DNA from: Falsiroseomonas frigidaquae
GTDB taxonomy: Bacteria; Pseudomonadota; Alphaproteobacteria; Acetobacterales; Acetobacteraceae
Reading direction: 5' to 3'
Length of the DNA: 64,000 bases
NCBI RefSeq assembly: GCF_012163145.1
Contig: NZ_JAAVTX010000001.1
Coordinates: 248,001 to 312,000 of the forward strand
The translations under genes were made by a program, and so were the position numbers. Positions 48,832 to 64,000 of the stretch are shown piece after piece (position 1 is the stretch's first letter; each line of letters begins with the position of its first letter). Below the pieces are notes generated by a model. That model was given only the letters and a program-made list of their open reading frames with translations, was not told the DNA's origin and searched no databases.

Positions 48832-48843
48832 CTGATTTCTAAT

Positions 48844-48918: not shown

Positions 48919-48953
48919 ATTTCAATAGGTTAGGTGGCGCCATTGCCGGCGCC

Positions 48954-48991
48954 GGGGGCACGAACCAGCCGGGGGCACATCGGGGCACACA
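48954..48991 (+). promoter_or_regulatory. Three GGGGCAC repeats, integrase arm-site candidates
   Basis: GGGGGCACGA, GGGGGCACAT and GGGGCACACA follow at short intervals 36 bp after the tRNA. Repeats of this kind beside att cores are often integrase arm sites. They lie on the element 2 side of the tRNA. Confidence 0.45.
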
Positions 48992-49076
48992 TTCCGCCGC
49001 GAGGCCCGGGCTGGCGCCTCCCCTGATCACACCCGGGACAGCGCGAAGCTGTCGAAGGCGCCGCCTCTGGCTGAAT

Positions 49077-49106
49077 TGCCGCCAGCCGCCGCCCGCAGCC
49101 GCCCGC
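49077..49106 (+). repeat. 30-bp direct repeat, unit 1
   Basis: TGCCGCCAGCCGCCGCCCGC followed by AGCCGCCCGC recurs at 49314 with one extra T. It may be a dispersed genomic repeat. Confidence 0.6.
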
Positions 49107-49313
49107 CGAGAATGGCGGTTTTCTGCGGGTTGCGGTCGGCCGGGCGGCGCTGGCAGCGTTTTCCCTCTGGCTGGACAGCGCTTCGCAAGGCGACGGCTGC
49201 CACCCTCTCTATCTCTACTCTGTCTTTTTTAAAGGAGAGCGCCGCCAGCGCCGCCCTGCCGTCCGCAAGTGGCGGAACTCTAGGCGTTGTGCGCTGCAGC
49301 ATCGCCGCCAGCC

Positions 49314-49344
49314 TGCCGCCAGCCGCCGCCCGCATGCCGCCCGC
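49314..49344 (+). repeat. 30-bp direct repeat, unit 2
   Basis: Second unit of the repeat at 49077, 237 bp apart, one inserted base. Confidence 0.6.
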
Positions 49345-49426
49345 AGTGGGCCTCGCCGCCTGCCACGCGCGCACTGGCCGGCGCCGGCGGCTTGATCGCG
49401 GAGCACAAGGTCAGCACCCAGGCATG

Positions 49427-49454
49427 AAAAAACCCGCCCCTTGCGGAGGCGGGT
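49427..49454 (-). terminator. Rho-independent terminator of element 2
   Basis: On the minus strand ACCCGCC and GGCGGGT form a stem followed by six T. It lies 30 bp after the stop of the leftmost element 2 gene and ends its operon. Confidence 0.85.
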
Positions 49455-49483
49455 CAGCGGTTCCGATCTGGATGTGGATGAGC

Positions 49484-50050
49484 TCAGTCGGGGGCGCGGC
49501 TCCGCCCGACCACCTTGCTGCGTCCGGCAGGGTCGAAGAGCTCGCCCCAGGGAACCCGGTCGAGCTGCTCCTTCAGAACGCCAGGCTGAAGCGCGAGCCA
49601 GCCATCCGGACTTTGGTCCTCGGGGATGCCGAGCCCCACCCGGCCGAAATGATCGAGATCAGCCCAAAGCACCACCTGCAGAGTCTGCGCCAGCTCGCGC
49701 GCCCGCTCCCGGTCAACCCCTGCGTCCGCCGCAGCCCAAACAGCGTGAAATGCGACGCGGTAGACCGCATTCGCGGAGGCCAGCGCGAAGCCACGCTGCG
49801 AAGGCTGGTCGAGATCCCCGAGCACCGCCCATGGGCTGTTCGCCAGGTCGGGCACCGGGGCACGATCGCGCTTCAGCGTCTCCCACCCAAGCCGCTTCAT
49901 CGGATCGATGTTCGCCGCAATCCATTGCCGCGCTGCCTCAACATCGATCGATCCATCCTGAAGAGATGGCATGCCCATCTTAACGTACTGCGTGATCCGG
50001 GCACGGTTCACGCCGAGAATACGCGCCGCCTCCGCCCTCTTAACGGCCAT
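49484..50050 (-). CDS. Nu1/TerS-like helix-turn-helix protein (element 2)
   Basis: From the ATG at 50050 the product is 188 residues. The N-terminal 50 (AEAARILGVNRARITQYVKM, DGSIDVEAARQWIAANIDP) resemble Nu1-type small terminase and related DNA-binding proteins. The rest is helical. No large terminase is present in this element, so it could bind a packaging motor supplied by another phage, as SaPI TerS does. A plain transcription factor is the alternative. It has its own upstream region of 250 bp. Confidence 0.6.
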   Translation of the reverse strand: MAVKRAEAARILGVNRARITQYVKMGMPSLQDGSIDVEAARQWIAANIDPMKRLGWETLKRDRAPVPDLANSPWAVLGDLDQPSQRGFALASANAVYRVAFHAVWAAADAGVDRERARELAQTLQVVLWADLDHFGRVGLGIPEDQSPDGWLALQPGVLKEQLDRVPWGELFDPAGRSKVVGRSRAPD

Positions 50051-50166
50051 GACCCAACCTTTCTGTTTAGAATCGAGTGTTAAGCCAAAAAAAACCAACC
50101 CAACTTGCACGGTCCCGCGGGCATTCTCACCGTATTAGCCGGGCCGCCAGAGGGACCCACTCGCCC

Positions 50167-50184
50167 GGCAGCTCCCGAGCTGCC
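50167..50184. terminator. Hairpin between 50.05 and 50.30 kb
   Basis: GGCAGCT-CCCG-AGCTGCC is a perfect 7-bp stem with a tetraloop. It follows the 50301-50594 gene on the minus strand. There is no T-run, so termination is uncertain. Confidence 0.35.
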
Positions 50185-50300
50185 CCGCCTTCCCGGCCGC
50201 GCCCCGGCGCTGGCCTGCCGATCGCCGGGGCCACCCCATCCGTGCGGGCGAACGTGCGACCAGACCGGAAGGGTGCGGGAAGGAGGCGCTCATCGGCGGC

Positions 50301-50594
50301 TCAGTCCTTCCCGCCTTGCACCAGCGTCAGACCCTTGTGATCCGAAGGGGGAGGAATGGCCGGCGGGTCCGCTGGCTGCAACCCAAGCCCGGCCCTGGCT
50401 CGGTCCCAGGCGGCGCGTGCTTCGGGGTTGGCACGAGTGCACTCCACGAAGGCCTGACGGGCTAGCGCGACATCCTGCAGGGCCGCATCGTATTCCTTGG
50501 CCGCGACCCTCAGCACCTCGGCGCGACTGATGGCCGTCTGCGCTGCAGCGTGCAGCCGGCCTGCTATCTGCATGACCAGATCGAGGTCACTCAT
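50301..50594 (-). CDS. Hypothetical protein next to tape measure
   Basis: The 97-residue product (MSDLDLVMQIAGRLHAAAQT; helical, then Pro-rich) lies 24 bp after the tape measure stop on the same strand. The role is unknown. Confidence 0.55.
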   Translation of the reverse strand: MSDLDLVMQIAGRLHAAAQTAISRAEVLRVAAKEYDAALQDVALARQAFVECTRANPEARAAWDRARAGLGLQPADPPAIPPPSDHKGLTLVQGGKD

Positions 50595-50618
50595 GGGTCC
50601 GCCTCCCATCTTCCATTC

Positions 50619-53426
50619 TCATCCGAGGGTGGTCAGCAGGCGGATGCGTTGCATCTCTTCCCGCAGGCCGGCCACCTCGCCTCGAAGCAGCTTCAGCTCA
50701 TCCACCTGCCGCTCCCCCGCCCTGAAGATTGCGCCGCTGAGATCATCGGTGAAGCCGGGCAGATCCAGCTGTCCGCCGAGGGCCACCACGCTGCCGCGCA
50801 CCATCGCCTCCACCGCACCGGCCTGGGCGCCGGCGCCGTTGAAGCTGGAATTGGCGGTCAGGTAGGCATTGGCGGTCGACACCACCCGGCCAAGATCGGC
50901 CGATTCCGTGCCGGCCGATCGCGCCGCCTCCAGCGCCGCCTCGAATTGCGACTGCGCCGCGCCGAACTGCGACTGCGCGGACCCGGTGGACCGCGCCCGG
51001 CTTTCCAGGAACCCGCCCAGCACCCGCGACCGCTGCGTCAGCCCGCCGAGGATCGATGCCTCCGACCGCGCCCGCACCAGCGTCTCGGCCTCCGCCTGGC
51101 GGGCGTTGATGTCCGCCAGGGACAGGCCCAGCAGGCTGGCCTGGGCGATCACCGGCTCGAAGGCGGCGCGCACGCCATTCAGCCCGGCCTCCAGCTCCGT
51201 GATCGGCTCCGCCAGGCGCCCCATCGGCTCGAAGACCGTGGTGACGAACTGCGCGATGTTCAGCGCCTCTCCGAGGTCGGTGACGCCGTAGGCCTCGAAC
51301 GCGCGCGTGACATTGGCATTGTCGCTGCGCAGGTCCGCCGCATCCTGCCCGAAGGCGCGCAGGCCGCCCGAAATATCCCGCGGGCTGGAGCTTTCGCGGT
51401 CCCCGATCCGGCCAAGGGCGCCATAGACTTCCTGCCCGAAGCCGCCGATCGAACGCGCTGACCGGGCGTCTTCCGAAAAGCGCAGCCCCGTCGCATCAAG
51501 CCGGGCGTTCAGGTCCGCAATCTGCGCCTGCGCATTGGCGATCAGCGCATCCTCATCCCCGGTGTAGCCCCGGCTGACCGCGGTGCCGGCGAAGATCGCG
51601 CGCCCATCCGGCCCGATGCCGATCAGCGCATCCGCACCATCGAACGCCCGGCCTGGACCAATCAGCCCACCGCCGCCGCCACCGATGGCGCCACCGATCA
51701 AGCCGCCGATCACGGTGCCGATGCCCGGCACGATGCTGCCGATGATCGCGCCCGCCACGGCACCGCCACCCGCGCCGATCTGGGCGTTGGTCTGCCGCGC
51801 CGCGCTGTCGCCAGCGGTGTAGCTGCCGATCATCGATCCCAGGGCAAAGCCACCGCCGATGCCGCCGGCCAGGGCGCCAAGGGTGGGGGCGCCGCTGGCC
51901 GCGATGCCGTTGAAGGCCGGGCCCGCGACATTGCCGCCCCACAGCGGCGTGCTGGCCAACTGCGACAGGCCGCCACCAGCACCGCCGGTCAGCCCCAACG
52001 CGCTGCCCACCTGGTTCGCAGCGCCGGTGTAGCCCAGCAACTGCGACAAGCTCCCGCCGCTGCTGTCGCTGCCGATTCCCAGCGCGGACACGGCACCGGA
52101 GGCCACGGGGCGGACGACCGCCTCGGCGCCAATACGAAGCACCGTGCTTCCAGCAGTTTGCTGCAGGCGCCGCATCGTCGCCGCGAAGCCGCCCTCAACA
52201 TTGCTGAAGGTGTTGGCAAAGCCGTCGGCCAGATAGCGGGTGATGCTGTCGGTCGCGCGCTCCGCAACCTGTTCCCGCTGCGCTTCCTCGCGCTCCCGCG
52301 TGCGGGTGATCTGCGTCTGCGCGCGGCGATCGGTGTCGATTGCCCGCTCGGCCGTGCGGCGCGCCAGCGTCTCGGCCTGGTCGAAGCCGCGGTCGGACGT
52401 CTCCGCCAACACGCGCCCGCCGCCACCGCCGCCCGAGCCACTTGCGGACGGCGCCGGCGGCCCGGCCGGCGTGCTGTAAATGGTTGCCCGAGCGGTTGCC
52501 AGCCGACTCTCAGCTTCACCGACAAGTCTGCCGAAGCCGTCCACCTGCGTCGATTGCGCGAGAATTGTGGCGTCGAGGCTGTTGAGGCCCTCCTGCACCC
52601 AGCCAAGCGGCACACGGCCACTGGCAACAGATCCCGCCATCTGCTCGCGCAGCGCCTGCGTTCGAGCGAGAGCGGCGCTTGCGCGAGCCTGCTCTTCCCG
52701 GTTCAGCGCAATCGCATTCTGAAGAGTTGCGACGGTCTCCTGCTTCTTGGCCTCAGCCAAGCGAAGCGAACGTTGCTCAGCTGATTCCAAGGCTTCGTTG
52801 CTGCGGCGTATGGCGTCGTTGTAGGCCTCACTCGCTTGGCGAACCTGGTTCGTCCGTTCCGCTGCGGCGGCATGGGCCTGCGCCAACGCATAGCCGGCGC
52901 CCCCCAGCGCCACCAAGGTTCCCAGCAGCGGCACAGCCACTCCGCTCAGCAGGGTCAAGGCCCCGCCGGCGCGCCCCGCCGCGCTGCCCGCCACAGCCAG
53001 CGCATCGGCCAAATTATTAGCCCCGCTCGCCACCGGCCCCAGGGCGGATGCGATACCGCTCGCGCCGAGCAGTTCCAGAGCGCCGCGCAGATCATTCGTG
53101 CGCTGCGCCGCCCGCTGGCTGGTCCGCTCCAGCCCTTCGAAGGTGTTGCTTAGGGAGGCAACTCGGCCGGCATTGGACTGCGCGCTGCTGGCCAGGCGAT
53201 CCTGCGCCTCGCGCAGCTCGGTCGCGCGCCGCGCCGCTCGCTCCGTCGCCTGCGCCGCCCTGTCCAGGCTGCTCTCCAACTGCGGGCTGGATCGCACCAA
53301 GGTTTCGATGGCGCGATTGGCCTCGGCGGATTCGCCCGCGACACGCCGCAGATCCTGCACGAACTCCGCGAACCCCTCGGCCTGGATCCGGAAGGAATAG
53401 GTGCCACGCCCGCGCGATCCGCTCAT
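50619..53426 (-). CDS. Tape measure protein of element 2
   Basis: The 935-residue protein opens YSFRIQAEGFAEFVQDLRRV, has long Ala/Arg/Glu coiled coils (to about 370), a Gly/Ala hydrophobic region (about 480-640), and further coiled coils. It shares with the prophage 1 tape measure the segment ARQTNAQIGAG followed by GGGLIGPG. The expected tail would be near 140 nm by the usual rule. It is the only recognisable structural gene in this element, which is unexpected. Confidence 0.85.
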   Translation of the reverse strand: MSGSRGRGTYSFRIQAEGFAEFVQDLRRVAGESAEANRAIETLVRSSPQLESSLDRAAQATERAARRATELREAQDRLASSAQSNAGRVASLSNTFEGLERTSQRAAQRTNDLRGALELLGASGIASALGPVASGANNLADALAVAGSAAGRAGGALTLLSGVAVPLLGTLVALGGAGYALAQAHAAAAERTNQVRQASEAYNDAIRRSNEALESAEQRSLRLAEAKKQETVATLQNAIALNREEQARASAALARTQALREQMAGSVASGRVPLGWVQEGLNSLDATILAQSTQVDGFGRLVGEAESRLATARATIYSTPAGPPAPSASGSGGGGGGRVLAETSDRGFDQAETLARRTAERAIDTDRRAQTQITRTREREEAQREQVAERATDSITRYLADGFANTFSNVEGGFAATMRRLQQTAGSTVLRIGAEAVVRPVASGAVSALGIGSDSSGGSLSQLLGYTGAANQVGSALGLTGGAGGGLSQLASTPLWGGNVAGPAFNGIAASGAPTLGALAGGIGGGFALGSMIGSYTAGDSAARQTNAQIGAGGGAVAGAIIGSIVPGIGTVIGGLIGGAIGGGGGGLIGPGRAFDGADALIGIGPDGRAIFAGTAVSRGYTGDEDALIANAQAQIADLNARLDATGLRFSEDARSARSIGGFGQEVYGALGRIGDRESSSPRDISGGLRAFGQDAADLRSDNANVTRAFEAYGVTDLGEALNIAQFVTTVFEPMGRLAEPITELEAGLNGVRAAFEPVIAQASLLGLSLADINARQAEAETLVRARSEASILGGLTQRSRVLGGFLESRARSTGSAQSQFGAAQSQFEAALEAARSAGTESADLGRVVSTANAYLTANSSFNGAGAQAGAVEAMVRGSVVALGGQLDLPGFTDDLSGAIFRAGERQVDELKLLRGEVAGLREEMQRIRLLTTLG

Positions 53427-53488
53427 GCCTCGCCTCCGGTCTATAGCGACGAGATCGACGCCGCAGAAATCACGCGCGCATCTTCGCC

Positions 53489-54211
53489 CTATTCGAGAGC
53501 GGCACCTTCACCACATTCGCCGAGCGGAAAGGGGATTGTAGAAATCGCAGGTGCCGGGTCAGCACAACAACCTTTGACGACATGACCGCTACGCATGGCC
53601 TGCGCCAGATACCGCTCCAAGCCGGCTTCCTCACCGATCTCCCCCGTCGCGTAATCCCACACCGCCGCCGCCGCCCGATGCACCAGGCCGCCGGGCGAAC
53701 TGCTGCAGGCTGCGCGACCCGCGAAGGACGCGACGATGCGGACGCAGCTGCGGCATAGGGCGAGCCGCGGATCCCCCCATAGCCGATCGGCTAGATTTCC
53801 CGGGCCAGGTGTAGGCGCCGTGGCGTCGATCAAGCCCTTCCGCGCCTCATCAGCCGCGAGGGCAAGAGCGTACGCCGCAGAGGCCGCCGAAAGGTCTGGC
53901 GCCGTACCTCGACCGGCGGTCAAAACTTCCCGCGTCATAGGATCAAGCCCGTCGCACAAATCCGCCAGCGCAGCCGCCATGGTTTGAAGGCGCCGCAGCC
54001 GATCCAACGCGGTTGCGCGGGTTGGTGCGCCATGTTGGCGCGCAAGGCCCGCCAGTAGCGTCATAGCCTCCCGCGTCAGGATAACGCGCACCGCGGATTG
54101 GCTTTCATGGTCCGACAGGGCAGCGATCTCGCACGCTACGACATCAAGCGTTTCGCGCGTCCCGGCTGGACTCGCCGGCCAGGTGCGATGCGAAGTCAGG
54201 CGGCGGGGCAT
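53489..54211 (-). CDS. Hypothetical protein (element 2)
   Basis: The 240-residue product is helical with an Ala-rich centre and CRSCVRIVASFAGRAACSSS near 150-170. It is preceded by a long perfect hairpin and not coupled to its neighbour. No family recognised. Confidence 0.55.
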   Translation of the reverse strand: MPRRLTSHRTWPASPAGTRETLDVVACEIAALSDHESQSAVRVILTREAMTLLAGLARQHGAPTRATALDRLRRLQTMAAALADLCDGLDPMTREVLTAGRGTAPDLSAASAAYALALAADEARKGLIDATAPTPGPGNLADRLWGDPRLALCRSCVRIVASFAGRAACSSSPGGLVHRAAAAVWDYATGEIGEEAGLERYLAQAMRSGHVVKGCCADPAPAISTIPFPLGECGEGAALE

Positions 54212-54234
54212 GGTGCGGCTGAGCTAGGAGGCAT

Positions 54235-54263
54235 ACCTGCGGCGCCACGGTGGCGCCGCAGGT
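54235..54263. promoter_or_regulatory. 13-bp perfect hairpin between genes
   Basis: ACCTGCGGCGCCA-3 nt-TGGCGCCGCAGGT lies 9 bp after the stop of the coiled-coil gene. There is no T-run on either strand. It may attenuate or process the transcript. Confidence 0.6.
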
Positions 54264-54272
54264 AACTCCTCA

Positions 54273-54926
54273 TCAGGCCAAGGGCAGATCGACAGGGGGC
54301 GCCACCTTCGCGGCGTCGATCGACTTCATGTAGTAGTCCAGATCCTTGTGAGCGCCGCGCGGGCCGGGCACCACCAGAAGGGGCTTCAGCAGCGTCGGGC
54401 GACCACTGTCCCCCATGAAGCCAACCTGATTATTCGGCCAGACTCGCTGCGTCGGCATCGCGACGCAATCGGCTGCGCGCCCGGCCTCGCGCAGCTTCTG
54501 GTTGGTCCGCTGCACCTGCGCCACAAGCTTGTCGTGATCTTCGACCAGCCGGAACAGCCCAGCACCGGCCTGCTCAACTTCGAGCACCAGCTTCGCGCCC
54601 CGCTCCGCCAGCGCCTCGGCCGCGCGACGCTCCGCGTCAAGCTCAGCGCGGGCATCACGCTCGGCTGCGGCCTTAATGCGCGCCGGCAGTTCCGCGGCCA
54701 TGCGCTCCATACGGCGGATCTGCTGCCGTTCGACCGCGATGGCTTCCTCATGCCGCTCGACATCATCCGGCGAAGCGTCCAGCAGCACGGTTCCGCTTCG
54801 CGCCTCCATCTCGGCGACGATCACCTTCTTCGCGCTCACCGCGGCGAGCGTCTCGGCCAGCGAACTCTCCAACGCGGCCACGGTGTCGGCCTTCGGGCGC
54901 ATGCCCAGCAGTGCCTTAATATCCAT
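54273..54926 (-). CDS. Coiled-coil protein (element 2)
   Basis: Starting at the ATG preceded by GGAG at good distance, the 217-residue protein begins DIKALLGMRPKADTVAALES and is mostly coiled coil, ending with WPNNQVGFMGDSGRPTLLKP. It may have a role like a scaffold or tail accessory. No family recognised. Confidence 0.6.
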   Translation of the reverse strand: MDIKALLGMRPKADTVAALESSLAETLAAVSAKKVIVAEMEARSGTVLLDASPDDVERHEEAIAVERQQIRRMERMAAELPARIKAAAERDARAELDAERRAAEALAERGAKLVLEVEQAGAGLFRLVEDHDKLVAQVQRTNQKLREAGRAADCVAMPTQRVWPNNQVGFMGDSGRPTLLKPLLVVPGPRGAHKDLDYYMKSIDAAKVAPPVDLPLA

Positions 54927-54986
54927 TGTCATCTCCATCATGATGCGCGGCCGGCCAGACGCCAGCCGCTTCTTCAGGCTTCAGTT

Positions 54987-55370
54987 TTAGGCGGCGGCGC
55001 GCAGCGCCTCCTTCGGGCTTCGGATGGTCCACCCGCGCTCATGCGGCGCGGGCGAAACATGCGGCCGGCTGTCCGCCTGGCGGCCCTGCGCAGAAATCTC
55101 CCGAAGCAGGTGATCCAGATGCGCTGCCGAGGCCGGCACCAGCGGATCGACCGCGCGCGCCTTGGCGCCATCGGGACAGATCGCCTGGAACAGATGCTCG
55201 GCCGAGGCAGTGATCTCACCGCCGGCCCGCTGCACGACCGGGTCGATCATCGCCAGCACCAGGCTGTGCTGTATGGCGCCTTCCATCCTCGCGGCATCGC
55301 GGCGCTCCATTTTCGCCAGCGCGCCGGCAATCGGCGCACCCATGTTCATATCCATCTCTTTCCACTCCAT
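54987..55370 (-). CDS. Hypothetical protein (element 2)
   Basis: The 127-residue frame has several possible starts; MDMNMGAPIAGALAKMERRD follows a purine stretch. Helical; contains ASAAHLDHLLREISAQG. No family recognised. Confidence 0.5.
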   Translation of the reverse strand: MEWKEMDMNMGAPIAGALAKMERRDAARMEGAIQHSLVLAMIDPVVQRAGGEITASAEHLFQAICPDGAKARAVDPLVPASAAHLDHLLREISAQGRQADSRPHVSPAPHERGWTIRSPKEALRAAA

Positions 55371-55425
55371 GCCGCAGATGCAGAAGTCACCAGCCGCCGC
55401 GGCGCGCAGACCGATGCCTGTAGGC

Positions 55426-56955
55426 TCACAACCGGCGCAGGCTCAGCCATCGCGTGCCGTCATGGCCGCCCTTGCCGTGCGCCATCTCGATGCGGTGGAC
55501 CGAGCGAAGGCCGGGCGCGATGCGCCGCAGCTTTGTTCCAAGGCCCGCCGGGTTCTTCGGCCAGAGGTTGCTGCGCGAGACGCGCTCTCCGGCGTGATCT
55601 GTCAGCTTGCGATAGAGCTCCTGCGGGGAGCCCTTCCATTCGGGCGCCTGGCGCTCACGCTCCTCTTCCGCCAGCAGCGCGACGACGGCCTGCGCCACAT
55701 CGTCCACCTCCAACGCGGCACGATCGGCGTTCCCGCGATTAGCGCGCCATGCTGCGGAGATGCGACCGGACTCTATGCCGAGGCCTTGCGCCGCTGCCTC
55801 TGCCCATGTCGCCGCGTCCATCATGCGGGGCGGGTCCACCAGCTTGGTAGTGGCGAGGTTGCGCAGCGCGGCGGAGAGGCCATCGCAGAGGACGCCCAGC
55901 AGGCCAGGCCGCGCCGCTGCATAGTCGGCCCGCATCTCCGCCTGCTCACGCCGCCGCCGCAGCGGGCGCAGCTCCACGCTGATGGCACGATCGGCGAGAT
56001 CTGGCCGGCCGAGGATGGTGGAGGGAATGCCGTTCACCAACATGGGCCGCACCGTGACGAAGATGCTTTCGTCCGAATCGGTGTGCAGCGCGCGGGCGGA
56101 GTAGCCGCCGCCGGTAGCGATGCGGCAGAGGCAGTCAGCGAAGGTGTCGCCGATGCCGCTGACATTGTCGAAGGCCACCAGATGCCGGTTGGCCGCCGAG
56201 ATGAACAGATCCCGTTCCTCGCGTGGCAGCGCGCGGCCTGTCAGGGTGCTCGGATCAAGCAGCGCCTGCATGTAGCGCGCGGCATCCGATTTGCCGCTGC
56301 CCTGTTCACCGTGCAGCAGCAGGATGGGATAGGCGCCACCCTCGGCGAAGGGCCGCGCCGCGCAGACCAGCCACGCCCAAGCCAGCGCCAGCTCGTCGTC
56401 CGAATCGACATTGACGAAGGTGCGGAGGTCCCCGGTGCTCGCCGCCGCTGCAGCGGGCTCCGGCAGGGGAAGCGAATCTGGCGCGCGCAGGAAGGCAACC
56501 GGCACATCATCAGCCGGGATGATGCGCCATCCCTCGGCGGCGATGCGAACCGCGCGACGCTCGCCGGCAGGATCGCCGCCGCCGAGGTCCAACCAGATGC
56601 AGCCATCCTGCCACGCGAAGCGCCGCCACGGCTGGCGCACATCGCCGGAGGCCAGCGCCCGCGCCTCAGCGAGCGCCACAGTCTCCGCGAGCGCGGTACC
56701 GGAGAGGCCGGCGCCATGCTCGAGGTAGAAGCGGACGGTCAGGCTATTGCGGAAACCCTTCGTGGCGACATGCATCCACTCCCGGTGACCGCGATGCTTG
56801 ATGCCGGCCAACGCCCCACCATCCGGCGTCCGGGCCAGGTCCCAATCAGACAGCAGCAGCGCCAGCTTATCGCGCCGTCGCGGCTTCGGCGCAGGCGTGG
56901 CCGGCGCTGCACCATTGGCATCGCCGAGGCTGAAGTCTTCCGGCTCATCAGCCAC
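55426..56955 (-). CDS. P-loop ATPase/helicase of satellite type
   Basis: The GTG at 56955 overlaps the primase stop and gives 509 residues. Walker A GEQGSGKSDAARYMQALLD lies near 215, RHLVAFDNVSGIGDTFADCL provides the Walker B/sensor region, and the C-terminal 120 residues form a winged-helix-like end. This resembles the superfamily 3 or D5-like replication ATPases of satellites and phages. With the primase upstream it forms the replication unit. Confidence 0.8.
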   Translation of the reverse strand: MADEPEDFSLGDANGAAPATPAPKPRRRDKLALLLSDWDLARTPDGGALAGIKHRGHREWMHVATKGFRNSLTVRFYLEHGAGLSGTALAETVALAEARALASGDVRQPWRRFAWQDGCIWLDLGGGDPAGERRAVRIAAEGWRIIPADDVPVAFLRAPDSLPLPEPAAAAASTGDLRTFVNVDSDDELALAWAWLVCAARPFAEGGAYPILLLHGEQGSGKSDAARYMQALLDPSTLTGRALPREERDLFISAANRHLVAFDNVSGIGDTFADCLCRIATGGGYSARALHTDSDESIFVTVRPMLVNGIPSTILGRPDLADRAISVELRPLRRRREQAEMRADYAAARPGLLGVLCDGLSAALRNLATTKLVDPPRMMDAATWAEAAAQGLGIESGRISAAWRANRGNADRAALEVDDVAQAVVALLAEEERERQAPEWKGSPQELYRKLTDHAGERVSRSNLWPKNPAGLGTKLRRIAPGLRSVHRIEMAHGKGGHDGTRWLSLRRL

Positions 56956-57805
56956 GCTTCGCGCGCTCCGCCAGGAGATCAGCGAAGTCGGCGCCCTCTC
57001 GGTGCGGCTGCGCGAGCTGTACCTTGCGGCCCTCGGCCTTCCACCTGACAGCGGCCTTCGCCGCGGCAGCACGGCCTGGCGGGTCCATATCCACCGCCAC
57101 CACCACTTCCTGCACTTCCTGCGGGAGAGCGAGGGCCTCAGCCAGGTTACCAGCCGAAATAGCGGCCCACGCGGGAAGGCGCAGCACATGCGCAGCGGCG
57201 AGGGTGGTCTCGATGCCCTCCCCCACCACCATCCGCGGCGCCACCGGAAACAACCTTAGGGCACTGCCGCGCACGTGGCCCAACGTCATCCTTGCAGGGT
57301 CCACGCTCGCTTTGCCGGCACCGCCAGGTGCCAGGAAGGTGCGGTGCACGGAAGTCGGTACCCCAGCCACGTCACGCAGCAGCGCGACCATGCAAGGCAA
57401 GTGCGCGCCGGAGGGATGCTTGGCCTGCGCCCGAAAGCCGATGTCCGGCAGGTCTGGCAGCGCCATACCAGGCACGCGCAGCGCCAGGTATCGCGCCACC
57501 GGCCCATCCCGCCACGGCACCACCCGCGCCCAAAGGTCCAACGCCGGCTGCGCACTCGACGTGCCACGCACCGGCACGGCAGGTGCCACGGCTGGGGAGG
57601 CAGGCGCGGCGCCGCCGAGGCGGGCCAGGACCGCCTCCGTCACGGCCGGCTGGTTCTGGCATGAGGCACACCACCAAAGCGGCTTGCCCTCCTTCACGCT
57701 CAGCCGAAGGCCAGTCTTGTAGCCGCAGGCAGGGCATTGCCCTGTCCATCCACCAGCCGCCTTGCGGAGGCCCAGCAGCGCGGCGATCTCGGCGGCGCTG
57801 CTCAT
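56948..57805 (-). CDS. Zinc-finger/Toprim primase
   Basis: From the ATG at 57805 the product is 285 residues. The zinc ribbon is CPACGYKTGL and WWCASCQ. A Toprim domain has MVVGEGIETTLAAAHVLRLP and VVVAVDMDPPGRAAAA. It is a DNA primase without the helicase half, and the ATPase follows with an 8-nt overlap. The pair acts in replication of the element. Confidence 0.88.
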   Translation of the reverse strand: MSSAAEIAALLGLRKAAGGWTGQCPACGYKTGLRLSVKEGKPLWWCASCQNQPAVTEAVLARLGGAAPASPAVAPAVPVRGTSSAQPALDLWARVVPWRDGPVARYLALRVPGMALPDLPDIGFRAQAKHPSGAHLPCMVALLRDVAGVPTSVHRTFLAPGGAGKASVDPARMTLGHVRGSALRLFPVAPRMVVGEGIETTLAAAHVLRLPAWAAISAGNLAEALALPQEVQEVVVAVDMDPPGRAAAAKAAVRWKAEGRKVQLAQPHREGADFADLLAERAKRG

Positions 57806-58296
57806 GCCAGGCCAAAGGGCTGGCCGCCCTCCGCCACGATCAAGCGCCGCGCCTCGGCCTCCACCGACGCAGGGATGACGTCGAAGCGGATCGCGCGGGG
57901 TGCATGCAGGAAGACGAAGCGCGACCAGTCGAGCCAGGCCCCCACACCGCACTCGATAATCACGGCGCCGGCGGGTAGAGCCATCGCGCCCGTGGCGAGC
58001 ACGCCATAGGCCTCTTCCTTGGGAGATCCGCCGAAGACGCCGATCGCGCCGCGCCCGGCATTCATTGCCGCCAACCAGCTCCGCAGCCGTGTACCGTCGA
58101 AGCGGTCAGGTCCGCAGGAGCCAACCGGCTCGGACGAGTCGTCGCCGAGGATCAGCAGGTCGGCGGGGCGCGGCGGGTCGAAGGGAGGCCGGCCGCCCGG
58201 CAGCACCAGGTGGATACGTCCGCCAGCATCCCTGAAGCGTGCCAGCAGCATGATGTGCGGCGGCAGCCCGGTGCCGAAGAATCCCGCGCGCATCAC
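57802..58296 (-). CDS. Hypothetical protein before the primase
   Basis: The 164-residue product starts at GTG 58296 or ATG 58293. HLVLPGGRPPFDPPRPADLL and GAVIIECGVGAWLDWSRFVF suggest an alpha/beta fold. ATGA-coupled on both sides. No family recognised. Confidence 0.55.
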   Translation of the reverse strand: MMRAGFFGTGLPPHIMLLARFRDAGGRIHLVLPGGRPPFDPPRPADLLILGDDSSEPVGSCGPDRFDGTRLRSWLAAMNAGRGAIGVFGGSPKEEAYGVLATGAMALPAGAVIIECGVGAWLDWSRFVFLHAPRAIRFDVIPASVEAEARRLIVAEGGQPFGLA

Positions 58297-58697
58297 CGGC
58301 GACCTTCGCTGCGCGAACCGACCAGGGCAGGTCCGTGCGCATGGGGGTTCAACGACACGCGCACCAGGCGGCGCAGGCCGCCGGCAGAGCGCAGCGCCAG
58401 GATGCGGAGCGTGCCATCCTGCCGGAAGCCAACCAGGTTCTTTTCGCGCAGCAGGGCAAGGTGCTGTGCAACCTCAGCCTCCGGCGCCGCCACCAGGCGC
58501 GCGAGGCGCGGCACGTCGCGGAAAGGCAGATCACAGGTTTTGGAGCGCTGCGCCGCGGCTTCGGCCAGCAGCAGCAGCAGCATGCGGGCGCCGAGCGGCA
58601 GGCTGCGAACCGCCTCACGCGTGGAAAGCGCCGGCTTCGGGGTCAGGGGTATATGCGCCGAGGCGGGTTCCGCCTGGCGCATCGCACGAGTTTCCAT
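58293..58697 (-). CDS. Winged-helix protein, paralogue of 33602 gene
   Basis: The 134-residue product contains LPLGARMLLLLLAEAAAQRS and VAAPEAEVAQHLALLREKNL, similar to the N-terminal domain of the prophage 1 protein at 33602. It may load or regulate the replication genes. It lacks the C-terminal half of that protein. Confidence 0.68.
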   Translation of the reverse strand: METRAMRQAEPASAHIPLTPKPALSTREAVRSLPLGARMLLLLLAEAAAQRSKTCDLPFRDVPRLARLVAAPEAEVAQHLALLREKNLVGFRQDGTLRILALRSAGGLRRLVRVSLNPHAHGPALVGSRSEGRR

Positions 58698-58708
58698 GAG
58701 TGCTGCCC

Positions 58709-58951
58709 TCAGCCCGCCAGAGCCAGCTTGGCCTCGCGGCGCGCCGCTTTGGCCTGGGACGGAAGCGCGCGGGTCAATTCCAGCGCGGCGAGCAACTCGC
58801 TTCGGCGCCAGCGCGGCGCGCGCGGCGCAGGATAGAGCGGCGGGGGAAGTCGCTGTGCCGCGACCGCTTTCCAGAACGCGGGGAGGCTAAGGCCAGCCTC
58901 CACGGCAGCGTGATCCGCCGGCAGCAGCGGATCGGGAGCCTGGTAGGACAT
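58709..58951 (-). CDS. AlpA-like regulator
   Basis: The 80-residue protein (VEAGLSLPAFWKAVAAQRLP, PAPRAPRWRRSELLAALELT) is an AlpA-type helix-turn-helix. In P4-like elements AlpA controls excision and replication genes. It starts the primase operon and is preceded by twin CTCCGGAG sites. Confidence 0.8.
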   Translation of the reverse strand: MSYQAPDPLLPADHAAVEAGLSLPAFWKAVAAQRLPPPLYPAPRAPRWRRSELLAALELTRALPSQAKAARREAKLALAG

Positions 58952-58962
58952 CGGCGAGACAC

Positions 58963-58990
58963 CTCCGGAGGATGCGTTGATGCTCCGGAG
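58963..58990 (-). promoter_or_regulatory. Two CTCCGGAG palindromes 20 bp apart
   Basis: The 8-bp palindrome occurs at 58963-58970 and 58983-58990, two helical turns apart, just upstream of the AlpA-like gene. The site nearer the gene also holds its Shine-Dalgarno (GGAGGTG). Confidence 0.5.
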
Positions 58991-59061
58991 ATATCTCAGC
59001 GTATTCGCGCGCGAGCGGGCGCTAAGGCCTGGGCGGGTTGCCCCCGGGGCAGACCGCTCCT

Positions 59062-59835
59062 CTAGCCTTGCCCCTCCCCCGGAGAATCCTTCTCCGAAGA
59101 CAGCCTGGAGGCAAGCAGCGCCTCGGCTTCCGCATCGGCATCCGCCTCCTCTTGCGTCAGGGGGGGAAATAACACCTTCACTTCCGCCAAATACCTCCGG
59201 GCAGTACGCAGGTCGGAGATGCCGAATACAAGAGTAAGCATTTCTTCTTGCTGGCGCTGGCTGAGCCTTTGGTCTCGCGCCCATTCGAGTACTTGAGCGA
59301 CCCTGGCCTTTCTGGATACGGACCAGTATTTGTCGAAGGCGTTGTGCCCATCCTCGCGCGTTAATCCCAAGACCATCGGGGCAAGCTTGGCTGCATCCGA
59401 CGCGGATATCTCGGGCGGCTTGGCGTTTAACGCCGCGAGCGCTTGCTTCCGGAGTTCGCGCGGGTCCCACAGCGCCAGCGGCACGCCTTGAAGACCCGGC
59501 ACCGCAGAATCGAGAAAGGCCTGCACCTCTCGCGAGAACGGCCGCGGCTCGGGGTTTGCGGAGCCGGGAACGTTCTTGAAGTAGTCGCGCGGGTCCAGCC
59601 GATGGACCGTCATGGCATGAAAACCCGCAGCCACCGCTGCTAGATAGGTCAGCGCTCGTCGCGAAAGCTGCGGCGGCGGGCGACGCGCCCTCGCGTCCTC
59701 CTCGTCCGACGCCGCCATCATCATCCAGTGTCTGATCTTGCCGTCGATCTCCTGCCAGATCAGCAGTGGGCTGTAGTCGCCGTCCCAATCCACGTCGGCC
59801 GGGTCGGTCGAACCCGAACCAAGCTTCTCGCTCAT
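59062..59835 (-). CDS. Hypothetical protein (element 2)
   Basis: From MSEKLGSGSTDP the product is 257 residues. SRRALTYLAAVAAGFHAMTV and ARDQRLSQRQQEEMLTLVFG are helical segments; the C-terminus is acidic. It lies upstream of AlpA on the same strand. No family recognised. Confidence 0.58.
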   Translation of the reverse strand: MSEKLGSGSTDPADVDWDGDYSPLLIWQEIDGKIRHWMMMAASDEEDARARRPPPQLSRRALTYLAAVAAGFHAMTVHRLDPRDYFKNVPGSANPEPRPFSREVQAFLDSAVPGLQGVPLALWDPRELRKQALAALNAKPPEISASDAAKLAPMVLGLTREDGHNAFDKYWSVSRKARVAQVLEWARDQRLSQRQQEEMLTLVFGISDLRTARRYLAEVKVLFPPLTQEEADADAEAEALLASRLSSEKDSPGEGQG

Positions 59836-60003
59836 CCGCGCCTCCGCACGCCCCGCGCATGTAGTCGGCGGGGCAATCCGGCGCGGAGGGTCCGGACTTG
59901 TCGGGGGCCAGCCTAGCCCCGCCGATTTCGAGCATGGCGACCGCATCGGGCCGCTGCAACACGCATCCGGAGCGGACCGCCGAATGGGCCCGGCGATGCA
60001 GCA

Positions 60004-60423
60004 TCATGCAGCCCTCGCATGGCCAGCGGCCAGCATGCCGGCATGCGCCCGGCGCCAGGCTATCGAGCCATCCAGCATGCCGCCGAGATCCGGCGCCGGG
60101 AAATCAGCGGCGCGCCAGGCGACGTACTCCATCCGCTGCGCCGCCAGATGCGCCGCGGCCTCCGCCATCCGCAGCAGCGGCACGGGGCGAAAGGCGCCGG
60201 ACAGCGCGAGGCGCAGCAGCTCCGCCGCAACCTCCCCGGCGGCGGCGGCATCATCGGGCGGGATGAGCGCCTCCACCACGCTGGACACGTCGCAGGCCAT
60301 GGCTGCGGCAGGCATCGCTTCGGCCGCACGGATGAGCGAAGGCAGGAAGGATGCGTCCTTGGCCTCCGGGACCGGCCTCAGCGGCAGGCCCGCGGGGCAG
60401 CGGCTGTTCCCGGGGGCGTTCAT
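60004..60423 (-). CDS. Hypothetical protein in export operon
   Basis: The 139-residue helical protein has no signal peptide. It is coupled by ATGA to the exported protein upstream. No family recognised. Confidence 0.55.
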   Translation of the reverse strand: MNAPGNSRCPAGLPLRPVPEAKDASFLPSLIRAAEAMPAAAMACDVSSVVEALIPPDDAAAAGEVAAELLRLALSGAFRPVPLLRMAEAAAHLAAQRMEYVAWRAADFPAPDLGGMLDGSIAWRRAHAGMLAAGHARAA

Positions 60424-61208
60424 GCCACCGCTCCGCCAACCAGGTCGCGCGCCAGTGAGGCCGCAAGCAGGCTCACCGGATCATCGCGGCCCTCGATGTA
60501 GTCGCGCAGGATCTCTGCCTTCGCCGCGCGGCCGCGCCGGGTCGCAGCCGGCGTGTCAGCGATCGCGCGCAGCACCAGCCGCCGCCGAACGCCGAGACGG
60601 TTCATCTCGGCGATAACAGCCTTCCCGCGCGGATCGCCGATCGGCAGGCCATCCTCCGCTTCGCCCAGGCCCTGCAGCTCCGCCGTAAGGCTTGCCCAGC
60701 GATCCACCAGACGCAGCAGCGTCGTGTCGGGCGAGGCGGCAGGCACAACCTGCGAGCCCGGCAGCGCCAGGTTGGCGAGCAACCGCGCACCATCTTCAGC
60801 CGCACTGGTGAGGAGAAGGAATTCTGCGCGCGCCATCCCGCCACACCCGTCGCGGAAGGCGACTGGCGCGCTCGCCTTGGCGGCCACGCCGGCGAAGCTT
60901 GCCGCCGGGATCTCCGCCATGTCGAAGAGTGCGGAGGCGTACGCTTCCCACGCAGCCGATTGCGCCTCTTGCGCCTCGGCCTCCGCCGCTCGGTCCGCGG
61001 CAAGCTCGGCCGCGCCGAACCGCTCCGCCGCCTCTGCATCGGCGGCGGATGCCGCAACGGCCACCTCACGAAGGCGCAGCAGTTCGCGATCGGCGCCTAC
61101 AAGCTCGGCCGGCGGCACCGTCAGCGCCACGGAAGCGGACGCAGCGGGCAGCAGCAGCGCGGCCGGGGCAGCGGCCAGGATGCCGCGGCGGGAGGGTGCA
61201 GGCTTCAT
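60420..61208 (-). CDS. Twin-arginine-like exported protein
   Basis: The N-terminus MKPAPSRRGILAAAPAALLL has an SRR pattern followed by a hydrophobic stretch, close to a Tat signal. The mature part of about 235 residues is helical and Ala/Glu-rich. It is translated with the protein upstream (ATGA). The location beside the regulator of element 2 fits a lysogenic function such as exclusion, unproven. Confidence 0.62.
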   Translation of the reverse strand: MKPAPSRRGILAAAPAALLLPAASASVALTVPPAELVGADRELLRLREVAVAASAADAEAAERFGAAELAADRAAEAEAQEAQSAAWEAYASALFDMAEIPAASFAGVAAKASAPVAFRDGCGGMARAEFLLLTSAAEDGARLLANLALPGSQVVPAASPDTTLLRLVDRWASLTAELQGLGEAEDGLPIGDPRGKAVIAEMNRLGVRRRLVLRAIADTPAATRRGRAAKAEILRDYIEGRDDPVSLLAASLARDLVGGAVA

Positions 61209-61651
61209 GCCTTCAGCCCCGCGGCGCAGGGCACCAGGCGGCCCGCATCCGCCGCCAGGGTGCGGGCCAGCCGGTCATGCCGGTGTTCCGATCCGTTCCG
61301 GCCAAGATGGACGCGCGCCAGCAATCCCGCCTTCACGGCCAGTCCGGCAGCACCCCAGGCAGGAAGCTCGGCAATGCGGTCCTCAGTCGCACTGATATCG
61401 TGGACCAAGACCGCACATCGAGCGTTGGCCTCCGCCTCGCCAGCCGCGTCGCCGGCGGCCTCGGCCGCCGCGCACTGGTCTACCACCGCTTCCAGCGCCG
61501 CGAATTCGGCGTTCCACCGCCGCGCCATGGCCAGTAGCTCGGCATCTGGATCGGCGGTGGAGATTGCGACGGTCGGCGTCAGGCCGACGATGATACCAGT
61601 TGCCAGGAATGTGCGGCGTGAAGCCGCAGGTGTAGAATGGTCAGCAGCCAT
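61205..61651 (-). CDS. Tat-exported helical protein
   Basis: From MAADHSTPAASRRTFLATGI the product is 148 residues. SRRTFLATG is a good twin-arginine motif. The mature part (ELLAMARRWNAEFAALEAVV) is helical. It opens a three-gene operon divergent from the XRE regulator at 61810. An upstream ATG at 61717 is less likely because it precedes the Tat motif by 34 residues. Confidence 0.65.
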   Translation of the reverse strand: MAADHSTPAASRRTFLATGIIVGLTPTVAISTADPDAELLAMARRWNAEFAALEAVVDQCAAAEAAGDAAGEAEANARCAVLVHDISATEDRIAELPAWGAAGLAVKAGLLARVHLGRNGSEHRHDRLARTLAADAGRLVPCAAGLKA

Positions 61652-61722
61652 CGTTCGGGCCTCCGTGGGGCTCGTGTGGTGGTCAGGCCGGGTGCGGGGA
61701 GCTTCCACCTTCCCCATCCGGC

Positions 61723-61761
61723 CGTTCTGACGTTGTTCAGCTTTCAGAACGCGGTTAGGAT
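61723..61761 (+). promoter_or_regulatory. Operator and promoter of element 2 regulator
   Basis: CGTTCTGA-13 nt-TCAGAACG is a perfect 8-bp inverted repeat (61723-61751). TTGTTC and TAGGAT, 17 bp apart (61733-61761), form a promoter inside it. It lies between the divergent regulator and export operons. Confidence 0.6.
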
Positions 61762-61809
61762 ATGCTTCGGTTCAGCACAGTGCAAGGCTTTCTGAACGTG
61801 GTGCAGTTG

Positions 61810-62040
61810 ATGGCGGTTCAATCGAGGATGGCGCGCGCGGCGGTTGGTCTAGGCGTTCGCGAGCTGGCAGCAGCAGCGGGCGTTTCCGCAGACACCATCG
61901 TTCGGCTTGAAAAGGGCGAGGCACTCCAGGCGCGGACCCTGGCAGCGATCCGCGCAGCCCTTGAAGCCGCCGGCGTCGATTTCATCGCAGAGAACGGCGG
62001 GGGCCCGGGCGTGCGGCTGCGGAAGGAAAGCCAGACGTGA
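61810..62040 (+). CDS. XRE-family regulator of element 2
   Basis: The 76-residue product (GVRELAAAAGVSADTIVRLE KGE, then AALEAAGVDFIAENGGGPGV) is a common alphaproteobacterial XRE regulator. I start it at 61810 because the ATG at 61762 overlaps the predicted -10. It probably binds the CGTTCTGA repeat. Confidence 0.8.
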   Translation: MAVQSRMARAAVGLGVRELAAAAGVSADTIVRLEKGEALQARTLAAIRAALEAAGVDFIAENGGGPGVRLRKESQT

Positions 62041-62435
62041 AGACGGAGCGGATTGATTTGGCGAGGGCGCTAAAAGATCACGCCCTACCCCTGATTCAGG
62101 CCGGTGGAGTCCCGACCAGAGCCGGGGATTCATTCGTGGCCATCGGTGACTTCGGCCCCTTCAAGATTCTTCTGCGCACTCCGTTTTCGCGCTGGCCATC
62201 AAGCCCGCCCGTGTTCAAGTCGCACCACGAGGCCGCGACGTGGCAGCGCAAGCCGCCGGAGCTCGACACGGGGCTAGACATCTGGCGCGGGCCGAAGGTG
62301 CTGAGCATCGAATGGGATAGCCGCGTCGCGGGAAGCGAGCGGATCATCAGCTTTCGGAGAGGCGCCTGGGAAGGCGAGTTCCTTGCCATACCGGAGCAAC
62401 CAGTGGCGCCTCAGTCAGCCTCGATAAGCCGGTGA
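62037..62435 (+). CDS. Hypothetical protein
   Basis: The 132-residue product has beta-type segments (DSFVAIGDFGPFKILLRTPF, KVLSIEWDSRVAGSERIISF). ATGA-coupled to the regulator. No family recognised. Confidence 0.6.
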   Translation: MKTERIDLARALKDHALPLIQAGGVPTRAGDSFVAIGDFGPFKILLRTPFSRWPSSPPVFKSHHEAATWQRKPPELDTGLDIWRGPKVLSIEWDSRVAGSERIISFRRGAWEGEFLAIPEQPVAPQSASISR

Positions 62436-62656
62436 TCCGCCGAGAGGCCGAAATCCGCATTCGACGCCATGCGCTGGATTGGCTCGCCGAGCAGGGCGCG
62501 GCAGGCACCTCGACAGACGCTCCCAGCTTCAGCAGCTTCCACGCCTGGTTGACTGCACGGGACCCAGCAGCACTCGACTTCCGATCAATCGCCGGACCGC
62601 GCTATGACGCCGAGGCGTGGTACGATGACGTCACCGGTCAGAACTGGCGGCGCTGA
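62432..62656 (+). CDS. Small hypothetical protein
   Basis: The 74-residue frame from a GTG that overlaps the upstream stop contains SSFHAWLTARDPAALDFRSI and ends YDDVTGQNWRR. It looks like a partner of the preceding gene. No family recognised. Confidence 0.6.
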   Translation: MIRREAEIRIRRHALDWLAEQGAAGTSTDAPSFSSFHAWLTARDPAALDFRSIAGPRYDAEAWYDDVTGQNWRR

Positions 62657-62697
62657 TCCACCCAGCCAAGACGGCGCCAGCAACCGGGATGGATGCT

Positions 62698-63243
62698 TCA
62701 GATCTCGCCGGCCGGCGCCTTCGGAGCGCGGGGCTTCGCGGCCTTCCGCTTCGCTTTCGGTTTGGCGCGCTTCACCTTCGGCCGTGACGCGCGTATCGCT
62801 GCCTGATGCGCCTTCCGGCGCTCCTCCTGAAGCTCCCACAGATCCCTGATACCATCCCGAAGCTCCCGCTCCCCGGCGCGTTCATGGGTCAATTGGCCCA
62901 GCATCCGAGAGGCGGCGATCTGAAGCGCGCCGCGGATCACATGCTGCTGCGCGCGGAGCTCCATCCGATCATCCTGCTGAAGCTTCTGCATGAAGTCGAA
63001 ATCCAGTTCCATCTGCACGCCAGCCACCCATGGCCACTCCGCCCCGGGGGCGCCGCCAGCTTCCTGCCACGCCATGACCGCGTTCAGGAACTGAAGCGCC
63101 TGGTTTGGCAAATGAGCGGGGCGGCCGGCTCCGCGGGCGACCCGCAGCAGGTTCGCGGCCAGCTGGGCCAGTGCGGTTCTCGTATCCTCAGCCGCACTGC
63201 GCTGGGCCAGAAGGGCCTCTGAGTTGTCGACCACCAGCTTCAT
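62698..63243 (-). CDS. Basic-tailed protein near the integrase
   Basis: The 181-residue product is helical (LAQLAANLLRVARGAGRPAH; RAQQHVIRGALQIAASRMLG) with a Lys/Ala/Pro-rich tail of about 30 residues, histone-like in composition. It might bind DNA. It lies 75 bp after the integrase on the same strand. Confidence 0.55.
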   Translation of the reverse strand: MKLVVDNSEALLAQRSAAEDTRTALAQLAANLLRVARGAGRPAHLPNQALQFLNAVMAWQEAGGAPGAEWPWVAGVQMELDFDFMQKLQQDDRMELRAQQHVIRGALQIAASRMLGQLTHERAGERELRDGIRDLWELQEERRKAHQAAIRASRPKVKRAKPKAKRKAAKPRAPKAPAGEI

Positions 63244-63317
63244 GCGACGCCCCCTTTGACGATGGGTAGCAGCATGATGCCGGGCAGGAGGCTCAGAGGA
63301 TAGCGGCCCGGGAAGGT

Positions 63318-64000
63318 TCAGCCGGACCAGGCGCCTGCCGGCTCCCTGCCCACCAGCCCCGCCACATGCGCCTGCCAGGTCGCCAGCGCCGCCAGCACCT
63401 CCGGCGCATAGTCGTGGCGGTCATAGGTGCGTTCCAGCTGGGTGCGGCCAGAGATGTGGTTGATGGCCGCCTCCGCATGGTCCCGCGGCACGCCGAGGCG
63501 CGTCATGCCGGTACGCGCCGTGCGGCGGATATCGTGCCACCGCCAGCCCGTTACCCTGGTTGCGGCATCCATCCGGATCTTCAGGCGCCCGAACCCCTGA
63601 AAGCCGCGGGCTGCGCTGCGCCCGAGTAGCCGATCGGCGGGGTCCGGCGCCTCGGCCGGCCACACGGCGCGCAGCTCGGCCAACGCCAGAGGAGACAGCG
63701 GCAGGGTGTAGCCGATGCCGTTCTTCGTCCGTGCGCCCGGAATCGTCCAGCGGCCCGCCGCCAGGTCCACCTCCCCCGCGGAGATCTCCGCCACCTCCGC
63801 CTCCCGCGCCCCGGTCAGGATCAGCAGCCGGACGAAGGCGCGCAGCTTCGGCGGCTCCCGGTCCGCGGCCCGCCAGATCGCCACCAGCTCGGCCTCGCTC
63901 AGCACCCGGGCGCGCGCCGCCGGCGGCGGGGCGATGACGGAGGCGCCCTTCCGCGGCAGCAGCGGCAGCGGCACCCAGCCATGGGCCTCCGCGAAGTTCA
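63318..64000 (-). CDS. Tyrosine recombinase integrase of element 2 (partial)
   Basis: The frame is open to the window edge; 227 C-terminal codons are seen. LTGAREAEVAEISAGEVDL (first Arg), WRWHDIRRTARTGMTRLGV (His-x-x-Arg) and LERTYDRHDYAPEVL (Tyr) make up the catalytic domain. It differs in sequence from the prophage 1 integrase, so the two elements have independent integration systems. The N-terminal arm-binding part is outside. Confidence 0.9.
   Translation of the reverse strand, partial: NFAEAHGWVPLPLLPRKGASVIAPPPAARARVLSEAELVAIWRAADREPPKLRAFVRLLILTGAREAEVAEISAGEVDLAAGRWTIPGARTKNGIGYTLPLSPLALAELRAVWPAEAPDPADRLLGRSAARGFQGFGRLKIRMDAATRVTGWRWHDIRRTARTGMTRLGVPRDHAEAAINHISGRTQLERTYDRHDYAPEVLAALATWQAHVAGLVGREPAGAWSG

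Follow-up and report, generated by a model that had tools for sequence, protein, structure and literature searches.

A satellite-like element of Falsiroseomonas frigidaquae with its own tape measure gene and a phage-shared, cos-like site

What is a tail tape measure gene doing in an integrated element for which no capsid, portal, large-terminase, tail-tube or lysis genes are recognised, either within it or just outside? The question is raised by element 2, which spans positions 48919-64874 (15,956 bp) of a 64,000-nucleotide stretch of Falsiroseomonas frigidaquae DNA (the window; C9:248001-312000 of the 6.08-Mb genome, which is in 19 contigs), with its right end 874 bp past the window. Element 2 is a discrete integrated element with a tRNA repeat, its own integrase and an XRE regulator, and it is very probably an intact phage satellite. 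We further consider it likely, judging from genome comparisons, that it represents a new satellite family with a cos-like packaging site and its own TerS, which would bring its own tape measure into the tails of a helper phage. The genomic marks of such presumed mobilisation in helper particles, a shared site and a helper-matched tape measure, come from Roseomonas oleicola.

Element borders and the sister element in Roseomonas oleicola

The insertion target of element 2 is a tRNA-Gly(CCC) gene, the 3' part of which is present as an exact 45-bp direct repeat at 48874-48918 and 64830-64874, the sole repeat of at least 16 bp between 48500-49500 and 63000-70000. A preliminary description, made from the window alone, had proposed the right attachment (att) site and the total length as a check on its satellite reading; because the second tRNA repeat was found to the right of the window, in the 36 kb of sequence that were inspected for the element's right end, the element is complete at 15,956 bp. 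Ordinary chromosomal genes follow to its right (by reading), and the structural genes that the preliminary description had allowed for just outside the window were not recognised in the 35 kb to the right. A clean empty site was not obtained; R. oleicola has the right flank of the window (91%) from query base 166 on, without an adjoining tRNA-Gly.

The same gene set does occur at another locus, as the preliminary description had suggested looking for. R. oleicola ROY-5-3 has the same element at its own tRNA-Gly(CCC), with a 46-bp repeat, and 15 of the 20 element 2 proteins match it in the same order (E 0.001), the unmatched ones being 54987-55370, 60004-60423, 62037-62435, 62432-62656 and 62698-63243. 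Identity between the two elements is 78% for the integrase, 89% for the XRE regulator, 87% for the AlpA-like protein, 72% for the primase, 51% for the ATPase and 47-50% for the TerS-like protein. DNA similarity begins and ends at the att sites, and the compared flanks are unrelated. With its own replication genes and no complete virion set recognised, element 2 has the genomic make-up of a satellite, and the earlier satellite reading is borne out by its defined ends, the second locus with unrelated flanks, the helper-matched tape measure and the shared packaging-like site.

The main genes point to the left, the integrase coming first at the right end and the TerS-like gene last, adjoining the tRNA; only the XRE regulator and two small genes have the opposite orientation. 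The features are as follows, in amino acids (aa) where lengths of proteins are given; Pfam was run on 19 of the 20 proteins, the exception being 60004-60423.

48844..48918, plus strand: tRNA-Gly(CCC), insertion target (ARAGORN); the attL core is its 3' part, 48874-48918
49484..50050, minus strand: TerS-like protein (Nu1-type), 188 aa, ATG at 50050; phrog_57 3.9e-10, helix-turn-helix (HTH) part only (residues 21-73)
50127..50158, minus strand: cos-like motif GGGTCCCTCTGGC-N9-AATACGGTGA, 76 bases ahead of the terS ATG
50301..50609, minus strand: 102-aa protein, function unassigned; 57% in the R. oleicola element
50619..53426, minus strand: tape measure protein, 935 aa; phrog_1047 8.3e-7, phrog_167 9.9e-7, and homology to full-phage tape measures
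53489..54211, minus strand: 240-aa protein, function unassigned; 61% in the R. oleicola element
54273..54926, minus strand: helical 'LRP' protein (alignment and BLAST), with counterparts in four other elements
54987..55370, minus strand: 127-aa protein, unmatched in the R. oleicola element
55426..56955, minus strand: P-loop ATPase, 509 aa, GTG at 56955; phrog_1156 0.0026, weak AAA matches
56948..57805, minus strand: primase, ATG at 57805; DUF7146 8.4e-20, Toprim_3 3.2e-17, weak zinc-ribbon match
57802..58296, minus strand: 164-aa protein; 50% in the R. oleicola element, 30% over 93 aa to a 175-aa protein of the G120 element
58293..58697, minus strand: winged-helix protein (by reading, without family match); a 70-aa stretch is 47% identical to a protein of prophage 1 (33602-34576)
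58709..58951, minus strand: AlpA-like protein (by reading, without family match); 87% in the R. oleicola element
59062..59946, minus strand: 294-aa protein, matching the R. oleicola element (89%) over residues 4-41 only
60004..61717, minus strand: three small genes (60004-60423, 60420-61208, 61205-61717), of which the second and third have counterparts in the R. oleicola element and in a second satellite of the window's genome
61762..62656, plus strand: XRE regulator (61762-62040; HTH_31 2.6e-7) and two small genes
62698..63243, minus strand: 181-aa protein without family match
63318..64000, minus strand, on to about 64625 outside the window: tyrosine integrase; PF00589 6.1e-11, 78% to the integrase of the R. 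oleicola element

The gene set that had been listed from the window is thus present by profile matches and homology as far as the integrase, XRE regulator, primase, P-loop ATPase, TerS-like protein and tape measure are concerned. The AlpA-like and winged-helix genes are likewise real and conserved, and their names rest on reading because neither has a Pfam match. The P-loop ATPase is probably the replicative helicase, while the 'LRP' protein might be a scaffold or size protein. Neither neighbour of the tape measure was recognised as a tail chaperone: 50301-50609 has no family match (Pfam, NCBIfam, PADLOC), and 53489-54211 has one chance-level Pfam match and otherwise none; the latter is present in two of 398 family genomes, each time within this element. 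No defence genes were found among ten element proteins tested against PADLOC at 0.01. The gene-poor stretch between terS and the tRNA holds a 44-nt inverted repeat (49121-49277; 80% complementary, 69 nt between arms).

The site ahead of terS and the matching tape measures

Elsewhere in its genome, between 51-bp tRNA-Arg repeats, R. oleicola also has a complete 40.8-kb prophage, with TerS and a fused protease-capsid protein by PHROGs, and with a GpA-like large terminase, portal, tail tube, tape measure, tail-tip and lysis genes by reading of the sequences. The satellite and the prophage of R. oleicola have an identical 49-bp stretch directly upstream of terS in each; apart from the tape measure, they have no other stretch of more than 18 bp in common. 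The core, GGGTCCCTCTGGC-N9-AATACGGTGA, precedes terS in the window element, the R. oleicola satellite, the R. oleicola prophage and a prophage of the same type in another genome (G008), at distances of 76, 76, 60 and 53 bases, respectively, counted from the terS ATG as chosen in the analysis. Allowing at most two mismatches, the motif occurs at six sites in three of the 398 family genomes and at none in the reversed control; a narrower scan of the genus gave four sites in two of 16 genomes. The TerS name given in the preliminary description draws support from the phage-shared site directly ahead of the gene; its profile match is confined to the HTH part. Relatives of the TerS-like protein were found in five of the 398 family genomes, its own included.

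The bases between site and terS differ between the satellite and the prophage of R. oleicola, and BLAST gives no match between the TerS of element 2 and that of the prophage; a shared nuclease site followed by a different TerS-binding part would be expected to look like this. Alternatively, the 49-bp site may be a late promoter or operator that answers helper signals, a possibility compatible with the satellite reading that we regard as unlikely, if worth serious consideration. The variable 9-base spacer between two fixed blocks would also suit a promoter, and the main evidence for a regulatory role is that the other two motif sites of the window's genome both lie in a second small satellite in which no TerS was detected, an arrangement that suits a regulatory site as well as cos; no recognised phage of that genome has the motif. 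A regulatory role is, by contrast, less consistent with the single copy in each prophage (R. oleicola, G008), directly before terS, or with the differing bases and unmatched TerS just described. The second satellite-like island (C9:526141-539643; L127 6141-19643) is 13.5 kb long at a tRNA-Arg(CCT) with a 46-bp repeat, and shares two small genes with element 2 (83%, 54%); its two motif copies have two mismatches each. BLAST found no TerS in it, and no virion family was found among six of its proteins tested.

The second link is the tape measure itself. The window protein has no Pfam match, and its top PHROG match, phrog_1047, is annotated as 'tail associated lysin', closely followed by the tape measure family phrog_167. 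Despite these modest profile scores, we take it to be a phage tape measure because its homologues are tape measures of full phages. Relatives sit in the tape-measure position in two full prophages, those of R. oleicola and G008 (49% over 818 aa between the two), and another (46% over 247 aa) is encoded directly after a DUF6441 gene in the isolated Synechococcus phage MinM1, the only match among 50,697 isolated-phage records at 1e-5. The window tape measure is about 50% identical to both R. oleicola copies, satellite and prophage. A peptide-pattern scan of the genome collection with this protein led to three confirmed loci, two of them in R. oleicola ROY-5-3. At E 1e-10, relatives of the whole protein are present in eight of 16 genomes of the genus and relatives of its C-terminal quarter in ten of 398 genomes of the family (own included in both), and the window's genome has one other relative at this threshold (C16:46682-47818, 35%, open frame of 1226 aa).

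The two R. oleicola tape measures, 963 aa in the satellite and 968 aa in the prophage, are identical at 818 of 963 positions (85%), with 84-99% identity per 100-residue bin except for residues 201-300 (50%) and 301-400 (56%). The ratio of nonsynonymous to synonymous substitution rates (dN/dS) is 0.28 overall, 0.04-0.17 in six of ten bins of 100 codons and 0.26-0.46 in the other four. These low values argue that both copies are kept as working proteins, and the patchy dS (0.11-1.0) makes exchange between satellite and prophage likely.

Could the satellite protein instead be a weapon or decoy that jams tail assembly of the helper and does not enter satellite tails? The divergence at residues 201-400 could give a non-productive hybrid, as this explanation would need, and yet we find it improbable. 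A protein that is complete and under selection along most of its length looks like a functioning tape measure, a satellite has need of tails too, and the precedent is one of incorporation: in the phage-inducible chromosomal island-like elements (PLEs) of Vibrio cholerae, the satellite's own tape measure is built into the virions and gives chimeric tails, and its removal cuts transfer by 96% (PLE1), 99% (PLE4) and about 99.9% (PLE11) (PMC12987554). It is very improbable that the gene is unused passenger DNA acquired from the helper: recent exchange with the co-resident prophage, likely from the patchy similarity, would fit, but the dN/dS values in six of the ten bins would not, nor would a reading frame that stays open over all 935 aa in element 2 despite about 50% divergence.

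The helper that had been proposed in the preliminary description, prophage 1, is about 50 kb long. An 18-bp piece from the tRNA-Gly 5' end is found on either side of it, at 48843-48860 and, beyond the left edge of the window by 1.1 kb, at L007 18874-18891, so that it appears to occupy the 5' end of the very tRNA-Gly whose 3' end holds element 2. Since both use opposite ends of one tRNA gene, prophage 1 is probably just a neighbour. By PHROGs, its genes include TerL, portal and capsid, along with a tape measure of 2073 aa (12366-18587; phrog_3336 9.8e-53). We rejected it as the likely helper: its tape measure belongs to other families and has only a 38-aa stretch in common with that of the element, the motif is absent even with five mismatches, and there is no DNA share longer than 18 bp with element 2. 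The tape measures and capsid proteins of prophage 1 and of the R. oleicola prophage are of different families; the two have a large gene in common (43390-45705 in prophage 1; 59% over 773 aa, ParB/methyltransferase-like by reading). We think it probable that the phage now serving as helper comes from outside and is of the R. oleicola-prophage type.

Taken together, we propose that element 2 would be excised by its own integrase and AlpA-like factor and replicated by its own primase and ATPase, as the families of these genes suggest. An active lambda-like siphophage of the R. oleicola-prophage type would then provide large terminase and heads, into which the satellite TerS and the cos-like site shared with the helper may steer satellite DNA. 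In tail assembly, the satellite tape measure could replace or compete with that of the helper, giving chimeric tails as in the PLEs.

Related elements with other virion genes, and known satellites

Relatives of the ATPase were found in 15 of 249 family genomes, own included. In the related elements, helical proteins with the 'LRP' motif come after the replication genes, and BLAST connects six copies across five elements (best pairs across elements, 29-36% over 56-206 aa). What follows them changes from element to element. In R. oleicola it is a lone prohead protease (phrog_4523 6.2e-25) and the tape measure; in G252, a lone prohead protease (phrog_4523 2.1e-30), then the contig end; and in G120, a different tape measure (phrog_8462 1.8e-26), adjoining a tRNA-Thr, which has no BLAST match below E 0.3 to that of the window. 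By alignment, both lone proteases retain His, Ser and Glu, which we take to be the catalytic residues of S78. The G074 element, tied to element 2 by its AlpA-like protein (61%), primase (43%) and TerS and not by the ATPase, encodes a gpE-type capsid protein (phrog_29 2.8e-22) along with TerS and a tRNA-Lys, its far end having been scanned for tRNAs only; the capsid protein is 28-32% identical to phage capsid proteins (best 10 of 374 records) and 32% to that of prophage 1. Thus, a virion gene occupies this slot in five of the five elements that were readable past the replication genes, the window included. Two G255 contigs (L054, L055) with close ATPase relatives were left out of this comparison, as they end at most about 280 bases after the ATPase, and G224 has only a TerS-like gene near a tRNA-Ser.

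More distant loci (36-44% in the ATPase) include short integrase-primase-ATPase islands. Of 13 such loci (L057-L069), eight were read for genes; family searches with seven proteins, taken from four loci, gave no virion family, one of the proteins proving to be DUF5681 (1.4e-6). A distant satellite-like island (L059) has a 1371-aa open reading frame (ORF; 4313-8428) towards a tRNA-Ser, with no phage or Pfam match and none of note in PHROGs. ATPase relatives (41%, 36%) also occur on Methylobacterium plasmids of 18 and 20 kb (L111, LR743506.1; L112, NC_010374.1), so small plasmids too are home to this replication protein.

The preliminary description had named deletion of a prophage as its alternative, with a tape measure and TerS left by chance after loss of head, lysis and most tail genes; both are phage genes and the G+C content of the element (0.693) is near that of its surroundings (0.70-0.707), but we can give this explanation hardly any credence, given that the gene order recurs at another locus between other flanks, that the R. 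oleicola satellite tape measure is under purifying selection, that other relatives retain other single virion genes, and that, among the compared ORFs of the R. oleicola prophage (a set picked without its large terminase and portal), element 2 is matched by the tape measure alone (E 0.01). No complete phage with this locus, which would have spoken for deletion, emerged from that ORF comparison, and none with an integrase-AlpA-primase-ATPase block was found among the ATPase loci read (part of 20 places).

How does element 2, read as a satellite, compare with satellites already known? P4-like satellites have a single fused alpha primase-helicase and Sid/Psu, whereas in element 2 primase and ATPase are separate genes and no Sid/Psu-type family match was found. 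With the PLEs it shares, by description, an own tape measure in a satellite for which the helper supplies most of the rest (PMC12987554). The PLE helper is the phage ICP1, with a tape measure 20% alike and 95 aa apart in length, and PLEs have a tail chaperone (PMC12987554), whereas in element 2 no chaperone was recognised, a TerS-like gene is present and the probable helper is a lambda-like temperate phage; similarity between satellite and helper tape measures here reaches 85%, and the two hardly differ in length (R. oleicola).

Capsid-forming phage-inducible chromosomal islands (cf-PICIs) are also integrated satellites with virion genes, some with a predicted tmp (PMC10690885; PMC12987554), but they bring capsid, protease, portal, connectors and both terminase subunits (PMC10690885), of which none except the TerS-like gene was recognised in element 2. 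AH14b, a satellite of the Pseudomonas prophage AH14a, resembles it in size (16.8 kb), in its own primase and in a tail assembly protein I 71-74% identical to that of the helper; it differs in that this gene is not a tape measure, that the identified virion proteins were all AH14a-encoded and that no terminase gene was recognised, as reported (PMC4936722). The cos-type SaPIbov5 alters assembly by means of one protein, Ccm, homologous to the capsid protein of its helper; this parallels the lone capsid protein of G074, although it is the head and not the tail that is affected (PMC8569155).

The preliminary description knew of no satellite tape measure, and this held until 2026, when it was shown for the PLEs; no other satellites had been reported to encode a tape measure, as stated in that paper (Nature 2026), the legend to Extended Data Fig. 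10 of which names putative tmp genes in Vibrio elements and in a sample of cf-PICIs (PMC12987554). A satellite tape measure as such is therefore no longer unprecedented. The element 2 family is not named in the literature found: no description of it was recognised, among the matches listed, in open-licence literature on satellite tape measures, virion genes, cf-PICI, Alphaproteobacteria and Roseomonas.

A possible conserved chassis with changing virion parts

Several points weigh against the full proposal of a satellite family with its own packaging site, TerS and tape measure. The evidence is genome sequence. A helper-matched tape measure was found in one genome only, that of R. oleicola; the tape measure profile matches are weak, the R. 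oleicola satellite copy scoring only 0.23 against phrog_167; and the TerS profile match (phrog_57) covers the HTH only. The C16:46682 tape measure relative of the window's genome is without the motif, and the second small satellite has two motif copies with no detected TerS. No second copy of the G120 tape measure was found in six genomes of its genus, and viral-contig scans with the tape measure, primase, ATPase and motif confirmed nothing. The suggestion that the satellite changes the tail length of its helper is not indicated either, given the near-equal R. oleicola tape measures (963 and 968 aa).

If not for tail length, why would a satellite keep a tape measure? We tentatively suggest, as a possibility that we hold somewhat short of probable, that satellites of one bacterial family keep an integration-replication chassis and swap single virion parts (tape measure, protease, capsid) from the phage that they rob, and that the tape measure is an assembly variant preferred by the satellite or escaping tail-targeting blocks. 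In ICP1, the tape measure stretch 314-387 is associated with escape from the PLE inhibitor Rta (PMC12987554). The divergent residues 201-400 of the R. oleicola pair may be compared with this stretch, which they overlap in position, as a positional parallel only.

It was not until 2026 that satellite-made chimeric tails were shown in print, for a single system and with no previous report known to the authors (PMC12987554). R. oleicola offers satellite, probable helper and matching tape measures in one named strain, of a different bacterial class from the PLE host, and the shared packaging-like site is an independent link between satellite and probable helper. With a temperate, probably inducible helper and natural variants of the slot, the question of why satellites bring their own tape measure becomes testable.

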